From IMG/VR virus record IMGVR_UViG_3300038311_000057, positions 1 through 49,474 of that record: a DNA stretch of 49,474 nt; one strand, written 5' to 3'. A program made the position numbers and the translations under genes. The DNA is from a virus. Below the pieces are notes generated by a model, which saw only the letters and a list, made by a program, of their open reading frames with translations, ran no database searches and had not been told where the DNA came from. Numbering within the stretch: the first letter of the stretch is position 1; the number at the start of each line of letters is the position of its first letter. Shown piece by piece: positions 3,067-49,474 of this stretch.

Positions 3067-3156
3067 CATTTTACTCATTTTACTCATTTTACTCATTTTA
3101 CTCATTTTACTCATTTTACTCATTTTACTCATTTTACTCATTTTACTCATTTTATT
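3067..3156 (+). repeat. 9-bp tandem repeat, about ten copies
   Basis: Nine perfect tandem copies of CATTTTACT run from 3067 to 3147, and a tenth with one mismatch follows to 3156. The complement, AGTAAAATG, appears as shorter forward copies at about 3008-3037. There is no spacer structure, so it is not a CRISPR array. It is probably part of the origin or a protein-binding array. Confidence 0.9.
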
Positions 3157-3857: not shown

Positions 3858-3874
3858 TTTTATATAAAAAAGTG

Positions 3875-3900
3875 TTGACAACTGTATAAATTGGTACATA
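3875..3900 (+). promoter_or_regulatory. Promoter P1, partial early-promoter motif
   Basis: AAGTGTTGACA with a -35 TTGACA at 3875-3880, matching the left half of the early promoters at 4088, 6849 and 11608. The -10 is poor (TACATA at 3895, short spacer) and no GTCAAC half-site follows at the usual distance. It would drive the pentapeptide ORF. Confidence 0.4.
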
Positions 3901-3914
3901 AAAGAAAATATATC

Positions 3915-4055: not shown

Positions 4056-4087
4056 TTTATAGTGGCGCCAAAAGTAATAAAAAAAGT

Positions 4088-4123
4088 GTTGACAAGAATA
4101 TAAAACAGTGTACAATGGTCAAC
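4088..4123 (+). promoter_or_regulatory. Promoter P2 with split palindromic operator
   Basis: The -35 is TTGACA (4089-4094), the spacer is 16 bases and the -10 is TACAAT (4111-4116). GTTGAC at 4088-4093 and its complement GTCAAC at 4118-4123 lie exactly 30 bp apart. It drives the SNF2 helicase gene 40 bp downstream. Confidence 0.8.
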
Positions 4124-4163
4124 TCTATTGAGAAAGTAAAAACTTAAAGGAAGGAATTATAAC

Positions 4164-6836
4164 ATGGCAACCAAAGCAACTAAAATTTCTAAAGCACAAT
4201 TCGTGGCAAAAGCACAGAGTTTTTTTGGCGATAACGTAAAAGTAGAGTATCGCCGGGCAACTGGTTCTGGTTGGTACTTATGTAAAGATAATTATGATTG
4301 TCGCATAGGAACAAATATAAATGAAGCTTGGGACTGGCTAAATCAAACGCATAAGTTTGATATTCAAACTGAAGTGGGGCAGATTCGTGCTGGTGCTACA
4401 ATCCAGGCGCTGGACCCAATAGAAACAGATGCTTTTCCAACCCTTTTTGAGAAACCCCTTGTCACAATCCACCAAGCTTTGAAATATCTTAGTGCTCGGT
4501 GTGATGGAGCTAATGCTCAAGATGGATGTGGATTCAATAAATTTGATGCTCAATATGGTCAATATCTCGCCTCGTTACCTGAACTAACCCAACATCAGGC
4601 ACGTACTGGCTGGGTACTTCTGAAGAAGTACCGTAAACAATTACAGGAAGGCGGCATTGACTACGACGCTATCCCAGAGCCACCAAAACCTACCGGAGCT
4701 CAACCAGATCGGTATATTGCGTTCAATACTTCTGGCCAATTTCTGGTGTATTCACATTTCGATGATAACAGTGAGTTTCAAAATTTTTTAGCGGCTATCA
4801 GGAAGGTATCCGGTCGCTATTTTGATTACGGTACCAAAACTAACGTGATTCCAAGACGTGTTGAATCTGTTGAAGCTATGGTGGAAATTGCTCAGCATTG
4901 GCATTTTGAGTTTTCGGGAGCAGCGTTGAATGCCATAGCTGAAATAATGGAACATCCAGAACAAGCTGAACATGCTCGGCAAATTAGCCTAGATGGCAAT
5001 CGCTTTCGAGTTCGATTCGATTATGACGCCAACGTTATCGCAGCAATGCGAAACGTCCCTAGACGAAAATATCAAGATGGGTATGGCGATTCTGTGCCTC
5101 TCTTCCGTAATTCCTGCATAGCACTACGGGAAGTGGCACAACAGTTTAATTTTTACGTTTCCCCTGAAGCCCGCACAGCCTTGGACAATCCACCCCCAGA
5201 GGTAAAGCAGATCCGCGCTGGTACGGATTTTTTAGTTGTGGAGTACTCCCATGATAGGGATTTCACAGCCGCTATGAACTTTCCAGGTTCCAGATTTGTC
5301 GAAGAACGTCCTGATGGTATTGCCATCAGGCATGTGGCACTCAGCGTAGACAGCATTAGCAGAATGTACGACATCGCGACAGATTTTGGGCTTAAAATTA
5401 CCGATCAAGCCGATCACATGATGCAAGAAGCTCTAGAGCAAATGAAAGCGAATATTGAGGCTAGCCGTGCCGAGAATTCCGATCTTAGAGTAGAAGGATT
5501 AGGTGGTGAGTTACGTCCGTTCCAGCGCGCGGGTGTAGCATACGCGATACGGGCTAAACGCGCTTTTATTGCAGACGAAATGGGACTTGGTAAAACAGTG
5601 CAGGCACTTGCCACCATCCAGGCTACCGGAGCTTATCCAGCCCTAATCGTATGTCCAGCTAGTTTAAAATTGAACTGGCAACGAGAAGCCAAAAAATGGT
5701 TGCCAGGGCGTTCTGTATCGATTTTTACAGCAGCCGGATTGGCTGCTGAAATTGAAATAATAAACTATGACATTCTAAAGAAAAACTTAAATCTGCTTAA
5801 AATGCGCGGATTTAAAGCTGTAATTTTCGATGAGTCCCATGCCCTAAAAAATAGGAAATCGCAACGTACTGAAGCTGCTGCTGAATTATCCAAGGGCATT
5901 GAAATTCGCCTTGCTCTGACTGGAACACCAGTCTTAAATCGTCCACAAGAACTCCTTAGCCAACTAAAGATTCTTGGGCGATTAGATGACGTGGGGGGCT
6001 TCTGGAAATTTGCCGAGCGGTATTGCGCAGCCCAAAAAACGCGCTGGGGCTGGGATTTCAGCGGCTCGGCTAATCTAACCGAGCTTAACGAGAAGCTCCG
6101 TTCAATATGCTACATTCGCCGCGACAAGGCGGGTGTTTTAGCAGAATTGCCTGCAAAACAACGTAGCGTAATTTCTCTGGACATCGATAATCGCCGGGAA
6201 TATCAAAAAGTCGAAAGAAATTTAATTGAATGGCTTACCGAGCAAAAAGGGGAAAAATTGGCTGAACGTGCCAAGTATGCTGAGCAGTTAGTAAAAATAG
6301 AGTATTTAAAACAACTGGCTGCTCAGGGGAAATTATCGGCCTTGTTTGAATGGATAGAGTCTTTTCTAGAAAGTGGCGAAAAATTGGTACTTTTCGCAAC
6401 CCATCAAAATATTATCGATGCCATAGCGGAAAAGTTCAGCAGCGCGTTAACGCTCACTGGAGAAACGCCTCAAACCCAACGACAAGAATTGGTCGATAAA
6501 TTCCAAACCGATCCGGAAACTAAGCTGATTGTGATGAATATGAAAGCAGGGGGAGTTGGGCTAACTCTGACAGCAGCCAGCAATGTTGCGTTTTTGGAAC
6601 TGGGCTGGACTCCTGCTGACCACAGCCAGGCCGAAGATCGTTGTCATCGTATTGGGCAGAGAAGTAGTGTAAATGTTTGGTATTTATTGGCAAACAAAAC
6701 GATTGATGAGGAAATATATCAGCTTATTGACGCAAAAAGAAAAGTTGTGGATGTGGCAACGGAGGGTGGCGAAATGGAGAAAAATCGTATTTTGCAAGAG
6801 CTAATCGCTTCACTGGGGGTTAACTTTGAGAAGTAA
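4164..6836 (+). CDS. SNF2-family DEAD/H helicase
   Basis: 890 residues with a good Shine-Dalgarno (AAGGAAGG) before the ATG. Motif I is DEMGLGKTVQAL (about residue 470), motif II DESH (about 555), motif III LTGTP, and the C-terminal lobe has MKAGGVGLTLTAASN and QAEDRCHRIGQRSS (about 821), which are diagnostic SNF2 motifs. A double-strand DNA translocase acting in replication-fork remodelling or recombination is expected. Residues 8-65 form a small domain (GDNVKVEYRRATGSGWYL) that is repeated at the start of the protein encoded at 6992. Residues 95-170 include a CDGANAQDGCGFNKFDAQ block, which I believe recurs in phage and plasmid SNF2 proteins. It is transcribed from its own operator-promoter. 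Confidence 0.93.
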   Translation: MATKATKISKAQFVAKAQSFFGDNVKVEYRRATGSGWYLCKDNYDCRIGTNINEAWDWLNQTHKFDIQTEVGQIRAGATIQALDPIETDAFPTLFEKPLVTIHQALKYLSARCDGANAQDGCGFNKFDAQYGQYLASLPELTQHQARTGWVLLKKYRKQLQEGGIDYDAIPEPPKPTGAQPDRYIAFNTSGQFLVYSHFDDNSEFQNFLAAIRKVSGRYFDYGTKTNVIPRRVESVEAMVEIAQHWHFEFSGAALNAIAEIMEHPEQAEHARQISLDGNRFRVRFDYDANVIAAMRNVPRRKYQDGYGDSVPLFRNSCIALREVAQQFNFYVSPEARTALDNPPPEVKQIRAGTDFLVVEYSHDRDFTAAMNFPGSRFVEERPDGIAIRHVALSVDSISRMYDIATDFGLKITDQADHMMQEALEQMKANIEASRAENSDLRVEGLGGELRPFQRAGVAYAIRAKRAFIADEMGLGKTVQALATIQATGAYPALIVCPASLKLNWQREAKKWLPGRSVSIFTAAGLAAEIEIINYDILKKNLNLLKMRGFKAVIFDESHALKNRKSQRTEAAAELSKGIEIRLALTGTPVLNRPQELLSQLKILGRLDDVGGFWKFAERYCAAQKTRWGWDFSGSANLTELNEKLRSICYIRRDKAGVLAELPAKQRSVISLDIDNRREYQKVERNLIEWLTEQKGEKLAERAKYAEQLVKIEYLKQLAAQGKLSALFEWIESFLESGEKLVLFATHQNIIDAIAEKFSSALTLTGETPQTQRQELVDKFQTDPETKLIVMNMKAGGVGLTLTAASNVAFLELGWTPADHSQAEDRCHRIGQRSSVNVWYLLANKTIDEEIYQLIDAKRKVVDVATEGGEMEKNRILQELIASLGVNFEK

Positions 6837-6848
6837 TTGAAAAAAAGT

Positions 6849-6884
6849 GTTGGAAAATATTAAAAATACTATATAATAGTCAAC
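6849..6884 (+). promoter_or_regulatory. Promoter P3 with split palindromic operator
   Basis: The -35 is TTGGAA (6850-6855), spacer 16, -10 TATAAT (6872-6877). The half-sites GTTGGA (6849) and GTCAAC (6879) are 30 bp apart. The symmetry extends to AAGTGTTG and CAACACTT. It lies 108 bp before the next start codon. Confidence 0.75.
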
Positions 6885-6938
6885 ACTTGATGATATTGAT
6901 AATGTTGATACAAGCATTAAAAGTCACTGCAAAACAGT

Positions 6939-6975
6939 GTTGACTACTGTATAAAACATATAATAATATGTCAAT
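6939..6975 (+). promoter_or_regulatory. Promoter P4, degenerate copy of the early promoter
   Basis: CAGTGTTGACT with GTTGAC at 6939-6944, TATAAT-like AT-rich bases at 6959-6968 and an imperfect GTCAAT at 6970-6975 (31 bp away). The second of two tandem promoters before the 314-aa gene. Its -10 overlaps an in-frame ATG at 6968, which argues that translation starts later, at 6992. Confidence 0.5.
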
Positions 6976-6991
6976 CCTAGGAAATTATACT

Positions 6992-7936
6992 ATGGAAAAT
7001 TTAAAAACCCAAACGCTGACCAAAGACCATTTATTAATGTTGACCAAATACCATTTCGGGCAAAATGTCCAAATTAAATACAAACAGAATGGTTTAACAT
7101 CAGGGTGGTACTTAGGTAACAATAACCATAGCTATTACATTAGTAAAGATGCATTTTCAGCTGCTTTGTGGCTCATCAGTAGTTCCCCACATTTTATTGA
7201 ACCAAATTCCTTCACAACCCCCGTTTTCAGTTGGATAAATCTTGGATATCAGGAGTATCTCAACAATGTCATTGCACATCAACTAATCGACCAAAACGAG
7301 TGTTCTACTAAACCAGATAATAACATTCGGTCATCTGCTGAGTATCTCGATGAGATACTCACCAACTTTAAGCAAATGGGTGGAAATAATTCAGCATTAT
7401 TGGTGCTCATATGGACATTAGGAATGCCGCTAAAGTGGTTTATAGGATATTATCCAAAATTAATCCTCATTGGAGAGGAACACGGTATTTTCAAAGTCGA
7501 TAAAAACGCTCTACTAAACCGTATAGAGAAAACCGTGCCCGGTTTTCTTCAAAGGGAGGATGATATCCCGAAAATTCTTAGGTGCCAATCCTCTTTCTCT
7601 TCCAAAGAATTCTCCCCTGAAACGATAAAAATCGAACTACTTAAAACCACTCAACCGCCGCCAGCCTCAATTAATAATTGGCCGGTAACCGAGTGGCTGG
7701 ATTTTTTATGTGCAATTAACCGGTCTGAATTTGACGACATTCTTGAGCATTGCTACCAGGATTATTGCCTGGTCACCGCGCCAGACACAGAATTTATGCC
7801 AGACAGAATAAATAATACGATAGTAATGCTACTAACGTGGAAACTGATCTGCCTATTTTTAGGCCGCCAATTGAGATGGGAACACAATGGGGAAAGGGTA
7901 GACGATATCGACATAAGCATTCATTCAGATATATAA
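6992..7936 (+). CDS. Orphan protein sharing the helicase N-terminal (GWYL) domain
   Basis: 314 residues from ATG 6992, chosen because AGGAAA sits 7 bases upstream; the in-frame ATG at 6968 lies in the promoter -10. Residues 10-65 (FGQNVQIKYKQNGLTSGWYL) align with residues 14-65 of the SNF2 helicase (FGDNVKVEYRRATGSGWYL), including spacing and the following aromatic strand. The remaining 250 residues match nothing I recognise. They are rich in W, F and Y and contain no nucleotide-binding motif or signal peptide. The shared domain and shared operator suggest that the two proteins bind the same partner or DNA structure. Function unknown. Confidence 0.8.
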   Translation: MENLKTQTLTKDHLLMLTKYHFGQNVQIKYKQNGLTSGWYLGNNNHSYYISKDAFSAALWLISSSPHFIEPNSFTTPVFSWINLGYQEYLNNVIAHQLIDQNECSTKPDNNIRSSAEYLDEILTNFKQMGGNNSALLVLIWTLGMPLKWFIGYYPKLILIGEEHGIFKVDKNALLNRIEKTVPGFLQREDDIPKILRCQSSFSSKEFSPETIKIELLKTTQPPPASINNWPVTEWLDFLCAINRSEFDDILEHCYQDYCLVTAPDTEFMPDRINNTIVMLLTWKLICLFLGRQLRWEHNGERVDDIDISIHSDI

Positions 7937-9564: not shown

Positions 9565-9762
9565 ATGTCAGCTAATCATACTAAAAAACATTATTACCGC
9601 CAGCACAAACAGCACAAAGCCAAACAATTACCACCAAAACCCCAAAAACCATTCCTAGAATGGTTAAACTCATGGTTTTGGTGGTTATTTTTTAGATTGG
9701 TTTTTTGTTATTTCATTTTCATGCTGGGTTATATCGTGGGCAGCCCAACCGGAGGGATGTAA
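9565..9762 (+). CDS. Small basic single-pass membrane protein
   Basis: 65 residues. The first 30 are strongly basic (H, K, R, Q), and one hydrophobic aromatic segment (WWLFFRLVFCYFIFMLGYIV) is followed by a short glycine-rich end. The basic N-terminus is expected in the cytoplasm. The stop at 9760-9762 is two bases before the FtsK-like gene start, whose Shine-Dalgarno GGAGGG lies inside this gene. Tight coupling suggests a small membrane partner of that ATPase. Family unknown. Confidence 0.7.
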   Translation: MSANHTKKHYYRQHKQHKAKQLPPKPQKPFLEWLNSWFWWLFFRLVFCYFIFMLGYIVGSPTGGM

Positions 9763-9764
9763 CA

Positions 9765-11594
9765 ATGCTAAAATTTGCCGCGACTTTAATTTTGATAATA
9801 TCCATCATGATTTCCGCTATATTGACAGTGCGGTTCATGATGATGCAGGGCGCCAGCAGTGAGATGGATATGATCCTTAACATTGGCATGGGTATAGTTC
9901 TAGCAATTGCCGAGGTTGTTTTTGCCGCCATGCTGGTGTATTTGTATGATATTAATAGATATTTTCTTTCGGTCTTATTTTTATTTGTGACCGGGCCACT
10001 GGTCGTAACATCGATCATTGCAAGCAACTTACAATTACTCGATTCACGGGCAAAAACTGAACATTACGCAATGGCAAACGATGCTGGTTACAACGCTTTG
10101 CTACAAATGCAAAAGGGGTATTCGGAACAGATTGCCCAAATTAGGGCACATCCGTACTATAATGAGCATAACCCAATTAACAAAAAACATTTTGATGAGC
10201 AGATTAGCGTAATCCTTGCCGAGCAAAGGCTAGTTAGTCAGCAAATTGCCAGCTTCAATCCAGCTACCCTTGAGTCCGGTAACGGATTTCAGGTTATGGG
10301 GGAATGGTTAGGCATGTCTGCAAATCAATTCAAGCAGAATGTGTTTTTCGCAGCATCGATATTATTAGAAGCTGTTATGTTGCTATGTACTATATTCTTA
10401 ACCGTAACATCACCACCTGGACCATCTGGACCATCGACTAGACCTCGTAAAGGATTTTTCAAGAATCTTTTTTCCTCATTTAAATTACCGAGTATTGTTC
10501 AGCAACCCACTGCTCAACCTGGCGGAGCTAGAGCATTGAATATTCAAGGGAATATTAACAAGGCCGGTCGGAATATTCCGGAATATTCCGTTGATAAAAG
10601 CCACACACTAAATTTTGTGGTGTCTGATGATTTAGTTGCTAACTTGACAAAATTCCCTCATATAATTATTGCTGGAGTAACTAACTCTGGGAAAAGCAAT
10701 TTTTTAAAGGGCATGATTTCTCAATTAATATCGCAAAATAGTCCGGAAAAACTGAAGATACTACCAGTTGATCTAAAGGAAGGTGCTACTCTATTCCGAT
10801 TCAAAAATGTTCCACACTTTGAGAAACCGTTGGCCACGAGCAACTCAGATGCGCTTAAATATTTAGAATGGTTAGAGCATGAAACTGCTCGCCGGCAGAA
10901 GCTACTTACCGCTGCCTCATGCGAAGATGTTAAGGAATATGTTAAGGAATATGGTAAAGAGCCATTCCCGTATTTGCTGGCGGTATTTGAAGAAGTGGCA
11001 TTTTTAAGCGATTATGATAAATCGGTTCGTTCACGCTTATCGTCAGTGGCGTCAAAAGCGAGAAGTGCTGCAATTAGCTTGGTTTTGTCAACGCAATACC
11101 CAAGGAAAGATGTTTTAGATTCTAAAATTACAGCTAATTGTTCAGGACGGTTTTGTTTTTTTTTGGAGAGCGTTCAGCAAAGCCTCGTTGTTCTTGGACA
11201 AAAAGGAGCAGAAAGCCTAAAAGGGAGTGGGCATGGAATATTTAAGCATGGTGGGTTCTTAACCGAATTTCGTTCAAAACTGTGGGATAAGATGGCTGTT
11301 CAAAAAGCGGTTAATGACGTTATTCATAGGTATGGTGAGAATATTTCAAAGTCGAATGTTATTCAATTTCCTAAGAATATTCATGATGATACTGGGAATA
11401 TTCCAGAGGATATTCCAGAAACAGAGAATATTCCAGAAACAGAGAATATTAAAAATATTCCCGATAAGAATATTCCAATTGCAGACCTAGCTAAAAAGCT
11501 CCGTCAAGAAGGAAAAAAACAGGTTGAAATCGGTGGTATTCTTGGAATACCACAGGGGACAGTCTCAAAGCTCTTGAGAAAAAGTAGTAATTGA
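9765..11594 (+). CDS. FtsK/SpoIIIE-type DNA-translocase ATPase with N-terminal membrane segments
   Basis: 609 residues from ATG 9765, chosen for the GGAGGG Shine-Dalgarno and the coupling to the upstream gene. Hydrophobic segments lie at about residues 3-25, 36-85 (probably two) and 200-220. The motor domain has Walker A AGVTNSGKSNFLKG (about 302) and Walker B LLAVFEEVAFL (about 405). A linker of NIP(E/D) repeats follows, and a C-terminal HTH (KKQVEIGGILGIPQGTVSKL) could read DNA sequence as FtsK gamma domains do. A membrane-anchored DNA pump is unusual in a siphophage. It could serve segregation or transfer of an extrachromosomal form, or host takeover; its role is inferred only. Confidence 0.85.
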   Translation: MLKFAATLILIISIMISAILTVRFMMMQGASSEMDMILNIGMGIVLAIAEVVFAAMLVYLYDINRYFLSVLFLFVTGPLVVTSIIASNLQLLDSRAKTEHYAMANDAGYNALLQMQKGYSEQIAQIRAHPYYNEHNPINKKHFDEQISVILAEQRLVSQQIASFNPATLESGNGFQVMGEWLGMSANQFKQNVFFAASILLEAVMLLCTIFLTVTSPPGPSGPSTRPRKGFFKNLFSSFKLPSIVQQPTAQPGGARALNIQGNINKAGRNIPEYSVDKSHTLNFVVSDDLVANLTKFPHIIIAGVTNSGKSNFLKGMISQLISQNSPEKLKILPVDLKEGATLFRFKNVPHFEKPLATSNSDALKYLEWLEHETARRQKLLTAASCEDVKEYVKEYGKEPFPYLLAVFEEVAFLSDYDKSVRSRLSSVASKARSAAISLVLSTQYPRKDVLDSKITANCSGRFCFFLESVQQSLVVLGQKGAESLKGSGHGIFKHGGFLTEFRSKLWDKMAVQKAVNDVIHRYGENISKSNVIQFPKNIHDDTGNIPEDIPETENIPETENIKNIPDKNIPIADLAKKLRQEGKKQVEIGGILGIPQGTVSKLLRKSSN

Positions 11595-11607
11595 GAATAA
11601 AAAAAGT

Positions 11608-11643
11608 GTTGACAAGTATTAAAAATGCTATACAATAGTCAAC
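11608..11643 (+). promoter_or_regulatory. Promoter P5 with split palindromic operator
   Basis: The -35 is TTGACA (11609-11614), spacer 16, -10 TACAAT (11631-11636). GTTGAC (11608-11613) and GTCAAC (11638-11643) are exactly 30 bp apart. Nearly identical to P2, including the A-rich leader. It drives the gene at 11671. Confidence 0.8.
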
Positions 11644-11670
11644 TTCTAATAACCTAAAAGGAAATATTTC

Positions 11671-12153
11671 ATGTACCGCAGATCCTATAGCTTCACTCTT
11701 ACTGGCAAACCAATTCCTAATTTAAAACAGTTGATTTGCGACAATAAGAATTCCAATTTCATCTTCCTTTCTTTCGTGAGAAAGTTCGCATATCAAGAAT
11801 ATGTCGAACTAAATTCTCTTCTTTTCGTAAGAAGCTCTTTTTTAGATGACTTTTCTACTTTCGACCAATTTAAATTACTGGGCGAGTATATTAGCCCAGA
11901 TTGGGGATTTCCAAAAATCCAAATTGGGAGGCTCAGTCGTACGAAACTGTATGTATCACATGAGGAACTAGCAAAAAATCCTTCGTGTGATATTTACTCG
12001 CTAGAAAATAGCTATGGGTATAGGTTCTCGTATATTTATGCGCCTCCCCAAGGTAGGCTGGGTGTCGATGAAATTATTTCTCAGCAAATCGAACCTGCTA
12101 GACGCAATTTAGCTACATTTAAAGCTAAATATAGTGTTGTCTCTCTCGTTTGA
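11671..12153 (+). CDS. Hypothetical protein under early promoter P5
   Basis: 160 residues with the Shine-Dalgarno AAAGGAAA before ATG. I recognise no family. It is rich in F, Y and S, without membrane segments, cysteine clusters or nucleotide-binding motifs. The first 85 residues alternate hydrophobic and polar residues, suggesting a beta-rich fold. Sharing the early operator-promoter with the SNF2 helicase and the GWYL orphan suggests an early host-takeover or counter-defence protein (inference). Confidence 0.75.
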   Translation: MYRRSYSFTLTGKPIPNLKQLICDNKNSNFIFLSFVRKFAYQEYVELNSLLFVRSSFLDDFSTFDQFKLLGEYISPDWGFPKIQIGRLSRTKLYVSHEELAKNPSCDIYSLENSYGYRFSYIYAPPQGRLGVDEIISQQIEPARRNLATFKAKYSVVSLV

Positions 12154-45007: not shown

Positions 45008-46129
45008 TTATTCTTTGTATTTGTCAATAAGTGATTCAATGGTTTTGAATCTTGTGGTAATAGCAGTTTTACTTGCCCCAGCATCAATTGAACGAAGAAA
45101 GTTATTTTCTTTCAAACACGATTGAAAGTCGTTAATCAACTTGCTTTTGTTTGATATTAAACACTCAGTTTCCCCATTACTTAAAGGTCCAGTAAGCACA
45201 GTCCATACTTCAAACAATGCCATATTTAATTTACGCCGATTGCCACTTCCTAAGATAGATTTACTAAAAATATTTTTTTCAAATAAGGTTTGACATGTTT
45301 TTAGTGCATTCCATAGATATTGTTTAAGTTGGTCTAATCTTTTGTCATCTAACTTATCTAAATGTTCCATGCCTTTATCAAGAAATTTAGTAAAAGGAGG
45401 TTCATATTCGGTATAATGCTTATTGGAAAAAGCTAGGTAACGCAAAATTAATTCGCGGTCAGCCATACGTTCATCTTTGACGACAATGACATCTTTAAAA
45501 TGCTTATCTTCAGATAGTTCTTTTAAATATTCTGCTGGTTTTCCCTGATTTAGAGCATGACGTATTTCTTGCAGGGTTAAAACTAATCCGCCGGTATTGA
45601 TTCGTCTAAAAAGGTCATACCGCACTTCTTTGGGGGTGTGAGGCTTTATTAAATACGTGGTGATTTGATATCGTTGCATCCGCCTTTGTAAATTTCTGTC
45701 TAAATCTTCAAATTTTTTGCCATTCAAATTGACCAATAAAGTTAAATCTTTTAAAACCAACCATTGGTCTATCACAAATTTTTTTAGACTCCAAAGCCTT
45801 TGTAAACCATCCACGACTAACCATTTTTCATCATTAGTCCCTTCAGAGGCGTCAAAATAGAAAGCCGGGATAGGAATTTGTAACAAAATAGATTCTATCA
45901 AACGGCTCATCGTGGTTTCAGACCATAAATTACCTTTACGCTGAAATTCAGTATTAAGGTCAATCGTACCATCCTCAATCATTGAAATAATAGTAGATAG
46001 ACTGTTCTGTTCAGTCGTGATATCAATTTTTCTGGGATCAAAAGCTGGAGATGAATTATCTTCAGGAAGAACATCCTCATCATTTTCTCCTTTTTCAATT
46101 TCCATCAGTTCATCATCTGTAGTCGTCAT
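45008..46129 (-). CDS. DUF262 (GmrS/ParB-like nuclease/NTPase) domain protein
   Basis: 373 residues from ATG 46129, chosen for the strong AGGGAGG 6 bases before it; the ORF continues upstream into a duplicated HTH fragment without a convincing start. DUF262 motifs: LSTIISMIEDGTIDLNTEFQ, QIPIPAFYF, WLVVDGLQRLWSL (a DGQQR-type active site with L instead of Q) and LFRRINTGGLVLTLQEIRHA. The C-terminal third is helical and lacks an HNH motif. DUF262 proteins are common in anti-phage systems (GmrS, SspE, BrxU) where they act with a nuclease; here, on a phage, it may exclude competitors. Function is unproven. Confidence 0.85.
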   Translation of the reverse strand: MTTTDDELMEIEKGENDEDVLPEDNSSPAFDPRKIDITTEQNSLSTIISMIEDGTIDLNTEFQRKGNLWSETTMSRLIESILLQIPIPAFYFDASEGTNDEKWLVVDGLQRLWSLKKFVIDQWLVLKDLTLLVNLNGKKFEDLDRNLQRRMQRYQITTYLIKPHTPKEVRYDLFRRINTGGLVLTLQEIRHALNQGKPAEYLKELSEDKHFKDVIVVKDERMADRELILRYLAFSNKHYTEYEPPFTKFLDKGMEHLDKLDDKRLDQLKQYLWNALKTCQTLFEKNIFSKSILGSGNRRKLNMALFEVWTVLTGPLSNGETECLISNKSKLINDFQSCLKENNFLRSIDAGASKTAITTRFKTIESLIDKYKE

Positions 46130-46180
46130 TCCAAACCTCCCTATTGATATACTTTCGCCAACTCTTGGATTAGTACCTGG

Positions 46181-46262
46181 GGAGTTTCCGGATTCCAGTC
46201 TACGAATGGTTAATTCGTTCACATTCAACCATTTCGCGAATTCTTTTTGCGTGAAGCCAAGT
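46181..46262 (-). pseudogene. Duplicated HTH fragment upstream of the DUF262 gene
   Basis: The 80 bases encode GFTQKEFAKWLNVNELTIRR LESG-type residues identical to those of the HTH gene at 46526-47041 and then leave the match. The fragment is in frame with the DUF262 ORF but has no start, since a stop (TAA at 46262) lies directly upstream. The DNA match to 46915-46994 is roughly 85% by eye. It lacks the first helix and cannot fold as an HTH. Confidence 0.75.
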
Positions 46263-47043: not shown

Positions 47044-48111
47044 TCAATCCCAAGAGAGTTGACTACCGGTTTGGTATTCACGTACTCGACCTTCAAAAAA
47101 ATTAACTTCCTGATTTAATTCATACTCACTTAGCCAAGGTATTGGATGTTCTTTAAGCGCAAATAAAGGTTTCAATCCCAAACTTTGGCAAATCTGATTA
47201 CCTATAAATTGCGCAAACTCAAAGTAAGTTGTGATAGACATTCCTAGAATGCCACCGTCAGGCATAGATGCTTTAGCATATTCAATTTCTAATTTGACCG
47301 CTTCATCAATAATAGCACGAGAACGTTCCCGCATAGCAGTGTCCCAGAACATTGGATTTTCCGAAGTAATTTGCCGAATCAACCACAGGTTATTGAGCGC
47401 ATGTAAATTTTCATCGCGCCAAATATAGCTATATTGCTGAGCGGTATTACGGAGTTTACCTTTGCGCGCTAAAGCAAAAATCTGCGAGAATCCCAGCGGA
47501 AAGAACAAGTATTCAAAAATATAGTAGCTAATCAGATCTTCTAATAACGCCCGGTTGGCTTCCATTGAGCCGACTGGTGCATCGCAATGAACTACGTTAT
47601 TAGTAAAGTTGATATTCCAATTTAACTTATTGGTTAAGGCTGGAATTTCTTGGTATAAGTTAAAAATTTGTCCTTGTCCTTTTTCATCTAAACCAAACGA
47701 TTCGAGGATAAATAAGTAGGATTCAATATGATTACTTTCTTCACTGATTTGCCAGCGTAGATATTGCCTCATTTCATTGGCAGTAATATGTTGCAAAATC
47801 GCATTATTCAGATTGTCCGGTACTAAGTTATCACTGGCGGTTAGATAAGAAATATTGGTTTTAAAGAGCCATTTTTCTGCTTCAGTTAATTGCCCAGTAT
47901 TCCATTGTAATTTATCTTCTCCCATCGGAACATCATTGGGTGTCCAAAAATTTCTCCGGGCATTTAAAAATCGTTCTCTGACTTGAGGATATTTAATTGG
48001 AATCGGTTGCCGCAAATCGTAACCGCGTCCGCCAATAATTTTAATATCGTCAGCATGAGGTCGTTTAGCACCGATAGTAATGGGATCAAGGCTACTCGCT
48101 ATGGCAATCAT
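47044..48111 (-). CDS. nrdB: Ribonucleotide reductase class I, beta subunit
   Basis: 355 residues from ATG 48111 (GGAGTAAAAAAAATG). All di-iron ligands are in place: Asp94 (ASDNLVP), Glu125 and His128 (ESNHIESY), Glu200 (FEYLFF), and Glu234/His237 (RDENLH), with the radical Tyr132 four residues after His128. These positions correspond to E. coli D84, E115, H118, E204, E238, H241 and Y122. It generates the tyrosyl radical for NrdA. No nrdA, nrdD or glutaredoxin is present in the genome, so it would need the host alpha subunit. It lies between SSB and the HTH gene in one operon. Confidence 0.93.
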   Translation of the reverse strand: MIAIASSLDPITIGAKRPHADDIKIIGGRGYDLRQPIPIKYPQVRERFLNARRNFWTPNDVPMGEDKLQWNTGQLTEAEKWLFKTNISYLTASDNLVPDNLNNAILQHITANEMRQYLRWQISEESNHIESYLFILESFGLDEKGQGQIFNLYQEIPALTNKLNWNINFTNNVVHCDAPVGSMEANRALLEDLISYYIFEYLFFPLGFSQIFALARKGKLRNTAQQYSYIWRDENLHALNNLWLIRQITSENPMFWDTAMRERSRAIIDEAVKLEIEYAKASMPDGGILGMSITTYFEFAQFIGNQICQSLGLKPLFALKEHPIPWLSEYELNQEVNFFEGRVREYQTGSQLSWD

Positions 48112-48124
48112 TTTTTTTACTCCT

Positions 48125-48613
48125 TCAAAAAGGTATATCATCATCGTCAAAATGACGGTCAGCAACCGGTGCTGGATTAGAAGGGCGCGGGGGTGAAGAG
48201 GTAGGTGGAATAGTGGGTGGATTTACTCCTTTGTTAACCGGCGGTGGTGCGTTGTAGTGAGTCGTTGTACTTTCACCACGTCCACCTAACATTTGCATGT
48301 CAAGCACCACAACTTCAGTCGTATAACGATCTATCCCATTTTGATCTTGCCATTTACGGGTTTGTAAATGGCCTTCCACATAAATTTGCGAACCTTTGCG
48401 TAAATATTGTCCAGCGACTTCTGCCAATCGTTTAAACAGAACGAGTCGATGCCATTCCGTTTGCTCTTGCCATTCACCGGTTTGTTTATCTTGCGAACTG
48501 TAACTGGTTGCTAAACTCAAATTAGCCATCACCACGCCACTAGCACTATAACGTACTTCGGGATCAGCACCTAAATTTCCTATTAAAATCACTTTATTAA
48601 CGCCTCGTGACAT
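48125..48613 (-). CDS. ssb: Single-stranded DNA-binding protein
   Basis: 162 residues. The OB-fold starts [18 protein letters not shown] and continues with [20 protein letters not shown] and [16 protein letters not shown], all near-consensus for gammaproteobacterial SSB. A Pro-rich linker and the acidic tip DDDDIPF, which recruits host replication proteins, complete it. AAGGATG precedes the ATG. It protects single-stranded DNA during replication and cooperates with the Sak4-like protein. Its stop is 14 bases before the nrdB start, so they share a transcript. Closeness to bacterial SSB suggests recent acquisition from a host. Confidence 0.95.
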
Positions 48614-49020: not shown

Positions 49021-49474
49021 ATGCTTCAACAACTTAAAGTGGAAAATATGGTCGTCGCAGTTGCCCACGAAATTAACCAACCGGTAGGAATTATCCGTGC
49101 AGCCACTGGCGCCGCTCTAGCGGATATTCAAGATAATTTATTTCAACCAACTGAACTAGTACCGCTATTAAATAAAATTTATGCGCAAACCGAGCAACTA
49201 AAAAATATAATCGAGAGTTTTCGCAAATTTGCTAACGGTGATCGCCAGCACCGGGAGAAAGTTAATTTAAATCAAGTAGTCGCCCAGACAATAGCTATTT
49301 TCGGAGAACAATTTAAGCACCACAATTTAACAACGACACTAGTAGAAATACCCCCGGAACCAATTGCTTGGGCGAATCCATTTCAACTAGAAGAAGTTCT
49401 GATCAATTTATTGAATAATGCCAAAGATGCGCTCGAAGGCTTGGCTAATCCCCAGATATGGGTTACAACCGAGC
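49021..49474 (+). CDS. Histidine kinase, N-terminal (HisKA) part, continues at base 1
   Basis: The ATG at 49021 is preceded by AAGGAG and lies two bases after the stop of the HTH gene, so the two form an operon. Translation gives VAVAHEINQPVG at residues 12-23, a classical HisKA H-box with the phospho-acceptor His16. A dimerisation helix pair follows to about residue 75, and the frame then runs into the HATPase_c domain at window base 1 (the last 100 bases shown are the circular overlap). The protein has only 234 residues and no PAS, GAF or transmembrane input domain, so it is a bare kinase core. Input could come from another protein. The family call is firm; the role in the phage is unknown. 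Confidence 0.92.
   Translation, partial: MLQQLKVENMVVAVAHEINQPVGIIRAATGAALADIQDNLFQPTELVPLLNKIYAQTEQLKNIIESFRKFANGDRQHREKVNLNQVVAQTIAIFGEQFKHHNLTTTLVEIPPEPIAWANPFQLEEVLINLLNNAKDALEGLANPQIWVTTE
49375..49474. repeat. Terminal overlap, right copy (circular closure)
   Basis: Right-hand copy of the 100-base overlap with the start of the window. The only difference is at 49473. The mismatch sits one base from the contig end, as expected of an end-of-assembly error. Confidence 0.93.

Follow-up and report, generated by a model that had tools for sequence, protein, structure and literature searches.

A short N-terminal domain common to a phage SNF2 helicase and its neighbour, a putative ATPase-dead derivative of a primase-helicase

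The window (the whole stretch of DNA that was analysed, 49,474 nucleotides) is an IMG/VR virus record in which bases 1-100 and 49375-49474 are identical except for one mismatch. These near-identical 100-base ends make it likely that the window represents an entire, circular-mapping phage genome, about 49.4 kb long. The gene pair under study encodes an SNF2-family helicase (P1) and the protein that follows it (P2); the surrounding genes encode a primase (NrS-1/DUF3987 type), Sak4, RusA and FtsK. The primase of the window is assigned to phrog_3022, a different family from phrog_5629. The phage also carries genes for an SSB (48125-48613) and a ribonucleotide reductase (RNR) small subunit (47044-48165). 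The features of the locus are listed below; GWYL denotes the N-terminal domain common to P1 and P2, and P3 denotes a relative of P2 in a second phage, IMGVR_UViG_3300038311_000061 (45,974 bp; referred to as G002).

4076..4124, plus strand: operator-promoter before P1 (TTGACA-16-TACAAT within a GTTGAC...GTCAAC inverted repeat; boxes AAAAAAGTGTTGAC...GTCAAC)
4164..6836, plus strand: P1, SNF2-family helicase, 890 aa (open reading frame; SNF2-rel_dom 3.3e-28, Helicase_C 4.4e-15, phrog_62 DNA helicase 5.7e-117)
4173..4373, plus strand: GWYL domain of P1, residues about 4-70 (profile of P2 and P3, E 4e-11)
4461..4658, plus strand: 'GFN' module of P1, residues about 100-165 (phmmer matches in viral SNF2 proteins)
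4719..5423, plus strand: about three HARP-like repeats of P1, residues about 186-420 (Pfam HARP, sub-threshold)
5511..6776, plus strand: SNF2 ATPase motor of P1, residues about 450-871 (motifs DEMGLGKT, DESH and QAEDRCHRIGQ intact)
6837..6885, plus strand: operator-promoter before P2, upstream copy (boxes AAAAAAGTGTTGAC...GTCAAC)
6931..6955, plus strand: operator-promoter half-site before P2, proximal copy (boxes AAAAAAGTGTTGAC...GTCAAC)
6992..7936, plus strand: P2, 314 aa from the likely start at 6992 or 322 aa from 6968 (open reading frame; conserved bases at the inner ATG in P2 and P3)
6992..7204, plus strand: GWYL domain of P2 (profile of P1 and P3, E 1e-10)
7340..7564, plus strand: P2 remnant before and at Walker A, W-LG-LK-GYYP kept and GxGKS lost (G002 primase 588-657; phrog_5629 551-608, E 8e-5)
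7670..7861, plus strand: P2 remnant after the ATPase core, WP..WL.FL helices (G002 primase 754-817, BLASTP 3e-10; phrog_5629 709-778, E 0.02)

Further copies of the operator-promoter were located at 3862-3910 and at 11596-11644, the latter before the gene at 11671; no such repeat was found in G002. The original prediction placed P1 and P2 under one operator-promoter: the two genes do have the same type, but it is not a private link between them, as copies occur elsewhere in the window.

Several other features of the genome were recorded. In the primase gene (684-2863), ten consecutive A residues (744-753) separate the N-terminal part (ATG 684, MFNSIPTTLTQARAWVLWQFKKK) from the long frame, as a result of a sequencing error, slippage or a real frameshift. 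Between the primase gene and an XRE gene, the 9-mer CATTTTACT is repeated in tandem about ten times (3067-3156), with inverted repeats nearby; this array is possibly an origin or iteron region. A gene spanning the junction (49021-49474 into 1-351) encodes a short histidine kinase with a HEINQP box and HATPase_c (PF02518 2.9e-20) and no visible sensor domain; a kinase on a phage is unusual. A GmrSD_N protein (45008-46228, minus strand), next to the RNR small subunit and SSB genes, gave a strong PADLOC match to NsnA (6e-117).

The N-terminal domain that had been predicted to be common to P1 and P2 was confirmed by alignment of residues 4-59 of P1 with residues 13-69 of P2 (30% identity, BLASTP E 1e-5). 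The Smith-Waterman score of the two domains was 74, and the highest of 5,000 shuffles reached 48. When the first 75 residues of P1 were compared with the open reading frames of the window, P2 was the sole match (2.4e-5), and at the DNA level 81% identity is retained in a 26-nt segment (4266-4291 and 7100-7125). Given the P2 start at 6992, the domain has an equal offset from the start in both proteins (F21 in P1, F22 in P2). To test this independently, viral contigs were scanned with a DNA pattern encoding FGx[ND]Vx[VI]...GWY; of the 86 stretches returned, one was a true relative, P3, which matches the domain of P1 at about 1e-10 and that of P2 at about 2e-11. Profile searching, the check proposed with the original prediction, gave the same answer: each two-member profile retrieved the third member (E 4e-11 for P1, 1e-10 for P2 and 1e-16 for P3), and among 19,773 open reading frames the leave-one-out profiles matched nothing below 0.05 beyond the held-out member. 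These comparisons demonstrate, at the sequence level, that a GWYL domain of about 55 residues is common to P1, P2 and P3 by descent. Pairwise domain scores were 114 for P1/P3, 118 for P2/P3 and 74 for P1/P2; a recent duplication inside this genome is unlikely, as the domains of P1 and P2 are each nearer to that of P3 than to each other.

In the collections searched, three copies of the domain are known, in two phages. Neither tblastn with both domains against phages (E<=10) nor tblastn with P2 against phages and plasmids gave a match. IMG/VR pattern scans with P1, the P1 N-terminus and P2 singly found no domain-bearing relative, a scan with a two-member alignment found no relative, and a three-member alignment found G002 alone in IMG/VR and had no match among 84,980 prokaryote genomes; such alignment and pattern scans depend on short near-exact peptides, so that distant members can escape them. 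No family in Pfam, PHROG or NCBIfam matched the domain convincingly. A profile match to the lectin Ika8 (7e-4), spanning 27 positions without a passing stretch, was attributed to chance. AlphaFold2, run with three sequences, predicted an alpha-beta-beta-beta-alpha arrangement for P1 residues 10-61 (pLDDT about 80). The P2 model is poor (mean pLDDT 39) and usable solely for the order of elements in the domain, which is the same; to that extent the two predictions may represent one fold. Fold searches with GWYL returned no significant structural relative. The predicted order of elements would be compatible with a dsRBD-like fold and with many other small folds, and for this reason no function is drawn from it.

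P1 combines the GWYL domain with three further parts. Its motor is that of an SNF2 protein with intact ATPase motifs (PF00176 3.3e-28, PF00271 4.4e-15), and phage helicase phrog_62 is its best family by score. With phmmer, matches to the GFN module (1e-5 to 1e-14) were obtained in nine viral SNF2 proteins and, C-terminally, in a further two. Its position is N-terminal in P1 and its relatives but C-terminal in the helicases of L005 (Thermus phage phiLo) and L042; the module is mobile and has no name in Pfam. The HARP-like repeats, counted by eye as three, score below threshold in P1 (15.1 bits, Pfam cut-off 25) and above it in the relative L009 (26.5 bits); HARP was detected at E<0.05 in six of 11 relatives. 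Viral SNF2 helicases of phrog_62 (e.g. L006, 54% identity in the best segment) share the GFN module, the HARP-like repeat and the motor with P1 but differ in the GWYL domain, which is absent from all 80 of the nearest viral SNF2 loci; the nearest complete relatives start at the GFN module. GWYL was probably joined to P1 within this lineage. Third-position G+C is 0.27 in the GWYL domain of P1 and 0.39 across the remaining gene, which, over so short a stretch, is in keeping with an added module. In two of the viral loci (L016 4980-7949 and L017 2598-5567) a 990-aa SNF2 protein carries an insertion within Walker A (DEMGLGK / AQPLSEPVLTPSGWRPMAGIRVGDQV...) that looks like an intein.

The stretch GGAAATTATAYYATG, which ends at ATG 6992 and includes a ribosome-binding site, recurs at the inner ATG of P3, and GGAAATTATACTATG upstream of the inner ATG of P2 (6992) recurs as GGAAATTATATCATG in P3; because this looks like a ribosome-binding site retained in both, the start of P2 is probably ATG 6992 rather than 6968. 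The phrog_5629 DNA primase profile matched P2 at 1.6e-5 in two collinear places, and the primase of G002 matched it with a total of 4e-18 through residues 588-657 and 754-817, again collinear (BLASTP 4e-10 and 3e-10). Aligned with two primases from Burkholderia phages, P2 has both its pieces at the borders of the ATPase core; there Walker A has been lost, and a segment of some 100 residues containing Walker B and sensor 1 has shrunk to some 35-40. Pfam found neither a CHC2 zinc finger nor a Toprim domain in P2; both are present in the G002 primase. As two independent routes (the PHROG profile and the G002 protein) lead there through two collinear segments, P2 is, as judged from these alignments, a shortened, ATPase-dead descendant of a phrog_5629-type primase-helicase. 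Relative to such enzymes (G002; Burkholderia phages Musica, KL3 and FLC5), it retains the helices flanking the ATPase core but is without CHC2, Toprim, Walker A and the Walker B/sensor region, and has GWYL in front. P2 had been described as belonging to no known family, which no longer holds with this ancestry detected, and as having no helicase motifs, which is correct except that their absence reflects loss of a helicase core. A broken copy of the present window primase was considered as a source of P2 and rejected, since that primase belongs to the other family.

P3 lies at 5431-6726 of G002 and has 426 aa from its inner ATG. Its layout is that of P2, GWYL followed by a dead primase-helicase remnant, although it is longer at the C-terminus and adjoins an intact phrog_5629 primase (973 aa, CHC2 and Toprim, 5e-231); P3's own primase match is weak. 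P2 and P3 are homologous over most of their length (3e-23) and have in common the motifs VTAP and PD.INNTI.ML, which were not seen in primases. This common layout and the motifs absent from primases indicate a dead form retained by two phages, and by these comparisons P2 and P3 are a separate family, non-catalytic as ATPases. In G002 the domain occurs in P3 only and there is no GWYL-bearing SNF2 protein; P1 and P2 are thus not an obligate pair.

The C-terminal extension of P3 (L175 6301-6723, in G002) runs about 140 residues beyond P2, carries DHVIPL...NAVLQITSAEFNQQ and is perhaps HNH-like, with a weak match (HNH_4 E 0.14). The two phages, otherwise far apart, have FtsK-like proteins (window 9705-11594, L175 16901-18682) that are 59% identical, with a nearly unchanged membrane N-terminus; a scan of two collections with this protein found only the G002 copy. 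A small XRE-like protein is also common to both phages.

Among characterized proteins P1 most invites comparison with the SMARCAL1/HARP annealing helicases, as a separate module at its N-terminus is followed by HARP-like repeats and then by the SNF2 motor. In SMARCAL1 an N-terminal motif binds RPA and the enzyme rewinds RPA-coated DNA (PMC3409536). P1 differs in that its GWYL domain has no detected homology to the RPA-binding motif and its HARP match lies under the Pfam cut-off. UvsW of phage T4 stands outside the SNF2 family. It is a phage rewinding helicase (PMC3778716), and by analogy P1 may resemble it in function, provided that P1 does rewind DNA.

A link of P1 and P2 to replication or the fork is plausible in view of the SNF2 motor and HARP-like repeats of P1, the probable primase-helicase ancestry of P2 and the neighbouring primase, Sak4, RusA and FtsK genes; P1 and P2 may have a common target. 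The reading preferred here, tentatively and with a probability of about 0.4, is that GWYL recruits accessory proteins to the replication-recombination machinery of the phage, with P1 as a motor and P2 as a non-catalytic partner on a common target. GWYL would be a small domain that recruits both proteins to this machinery, by docking or by binding nucleic acid. P1 would rewind or remodel phage DNA (annealing, branch migration or fork regression), with GWYL supplying its target in analogy with the RPA-binding motif of SMARCAL1. P2 would meet the same target and may act as an adaptor or as a brake on P1 or the replisome. The ligand is a guess because the fold matches nothing significantly; foremost among the candidates would be the SSB that the phage encodes, or else branched or single-stranded DNA. 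We consider it unlikely that dead P2 and active P1 are tethered by GWYL to one replication target as a fork-remodelling unit, with the timing of the motor's action controlled by the pseudo-helicase.

The same observations can be read in other ways. P2 might be a decaying relic of a primase-helicase with little present function, the common domain merely recording module shuffling: its ATPase core is deleted, the window primase is of another family (phrog_3022) and P2 is rare across the collections searched. We regard this as rather unlikely, however, since the frame is open for 314 codons with promoter-like boxes and a ribosome site of its own, and the same dead layout, homologous at 3e-23, has been kept in G002 beside an intact primase. 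It is also somewhat improbable that GWYL is a general nucleic-acid-binding or oligomerization module which P1 and P2 use separately, on different substrates and with no joint work. The confinement of the domain to P3 in G002, the greater nearness of the P1 and P2 domains to that of P3 (114 and 118, against 74 to each other) and the occurrence of the promoter type beyond P1 and P2 would all fit separate use, but the two genes are neighbours in one module, each with this promoter type, and both proteins appear to be of DNA-replication ancestry.

A defence or counter-defence unit is highly improbable. The motor of P1 does resemble those of ZorD, DpdE and DrmD (best PADLOC E 2e-56), and the NsnA/GmrSD-like gene lies elsewhere in the phage (45008-46228). 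Against this, the matches of P1 are confined to the SNF2 motor and miss the NCBIfam whole-protein cut-offs for Zorya ZorD (89 of 1500 bits) and DISARM DrmD (70 of 610 bits) by far, phage helicase phrog_62 is its top-scoring family, and PADLOC finds nothing in P2; the counter-defence role suggested originally for the pair is accordingly not upheld.

A short, undescribed domain now has three confirmed members and clear ends, and P2, until now an orphan, can be placed as a probable retained, ATPase-dead derivative of a phage primase-helicase. The locus also lends itself to a simple test of whether different replication proteins of phages carry a common docking tag, comparable to the RPA-binding motifs on eukaryotic fork-remodelling helicases.
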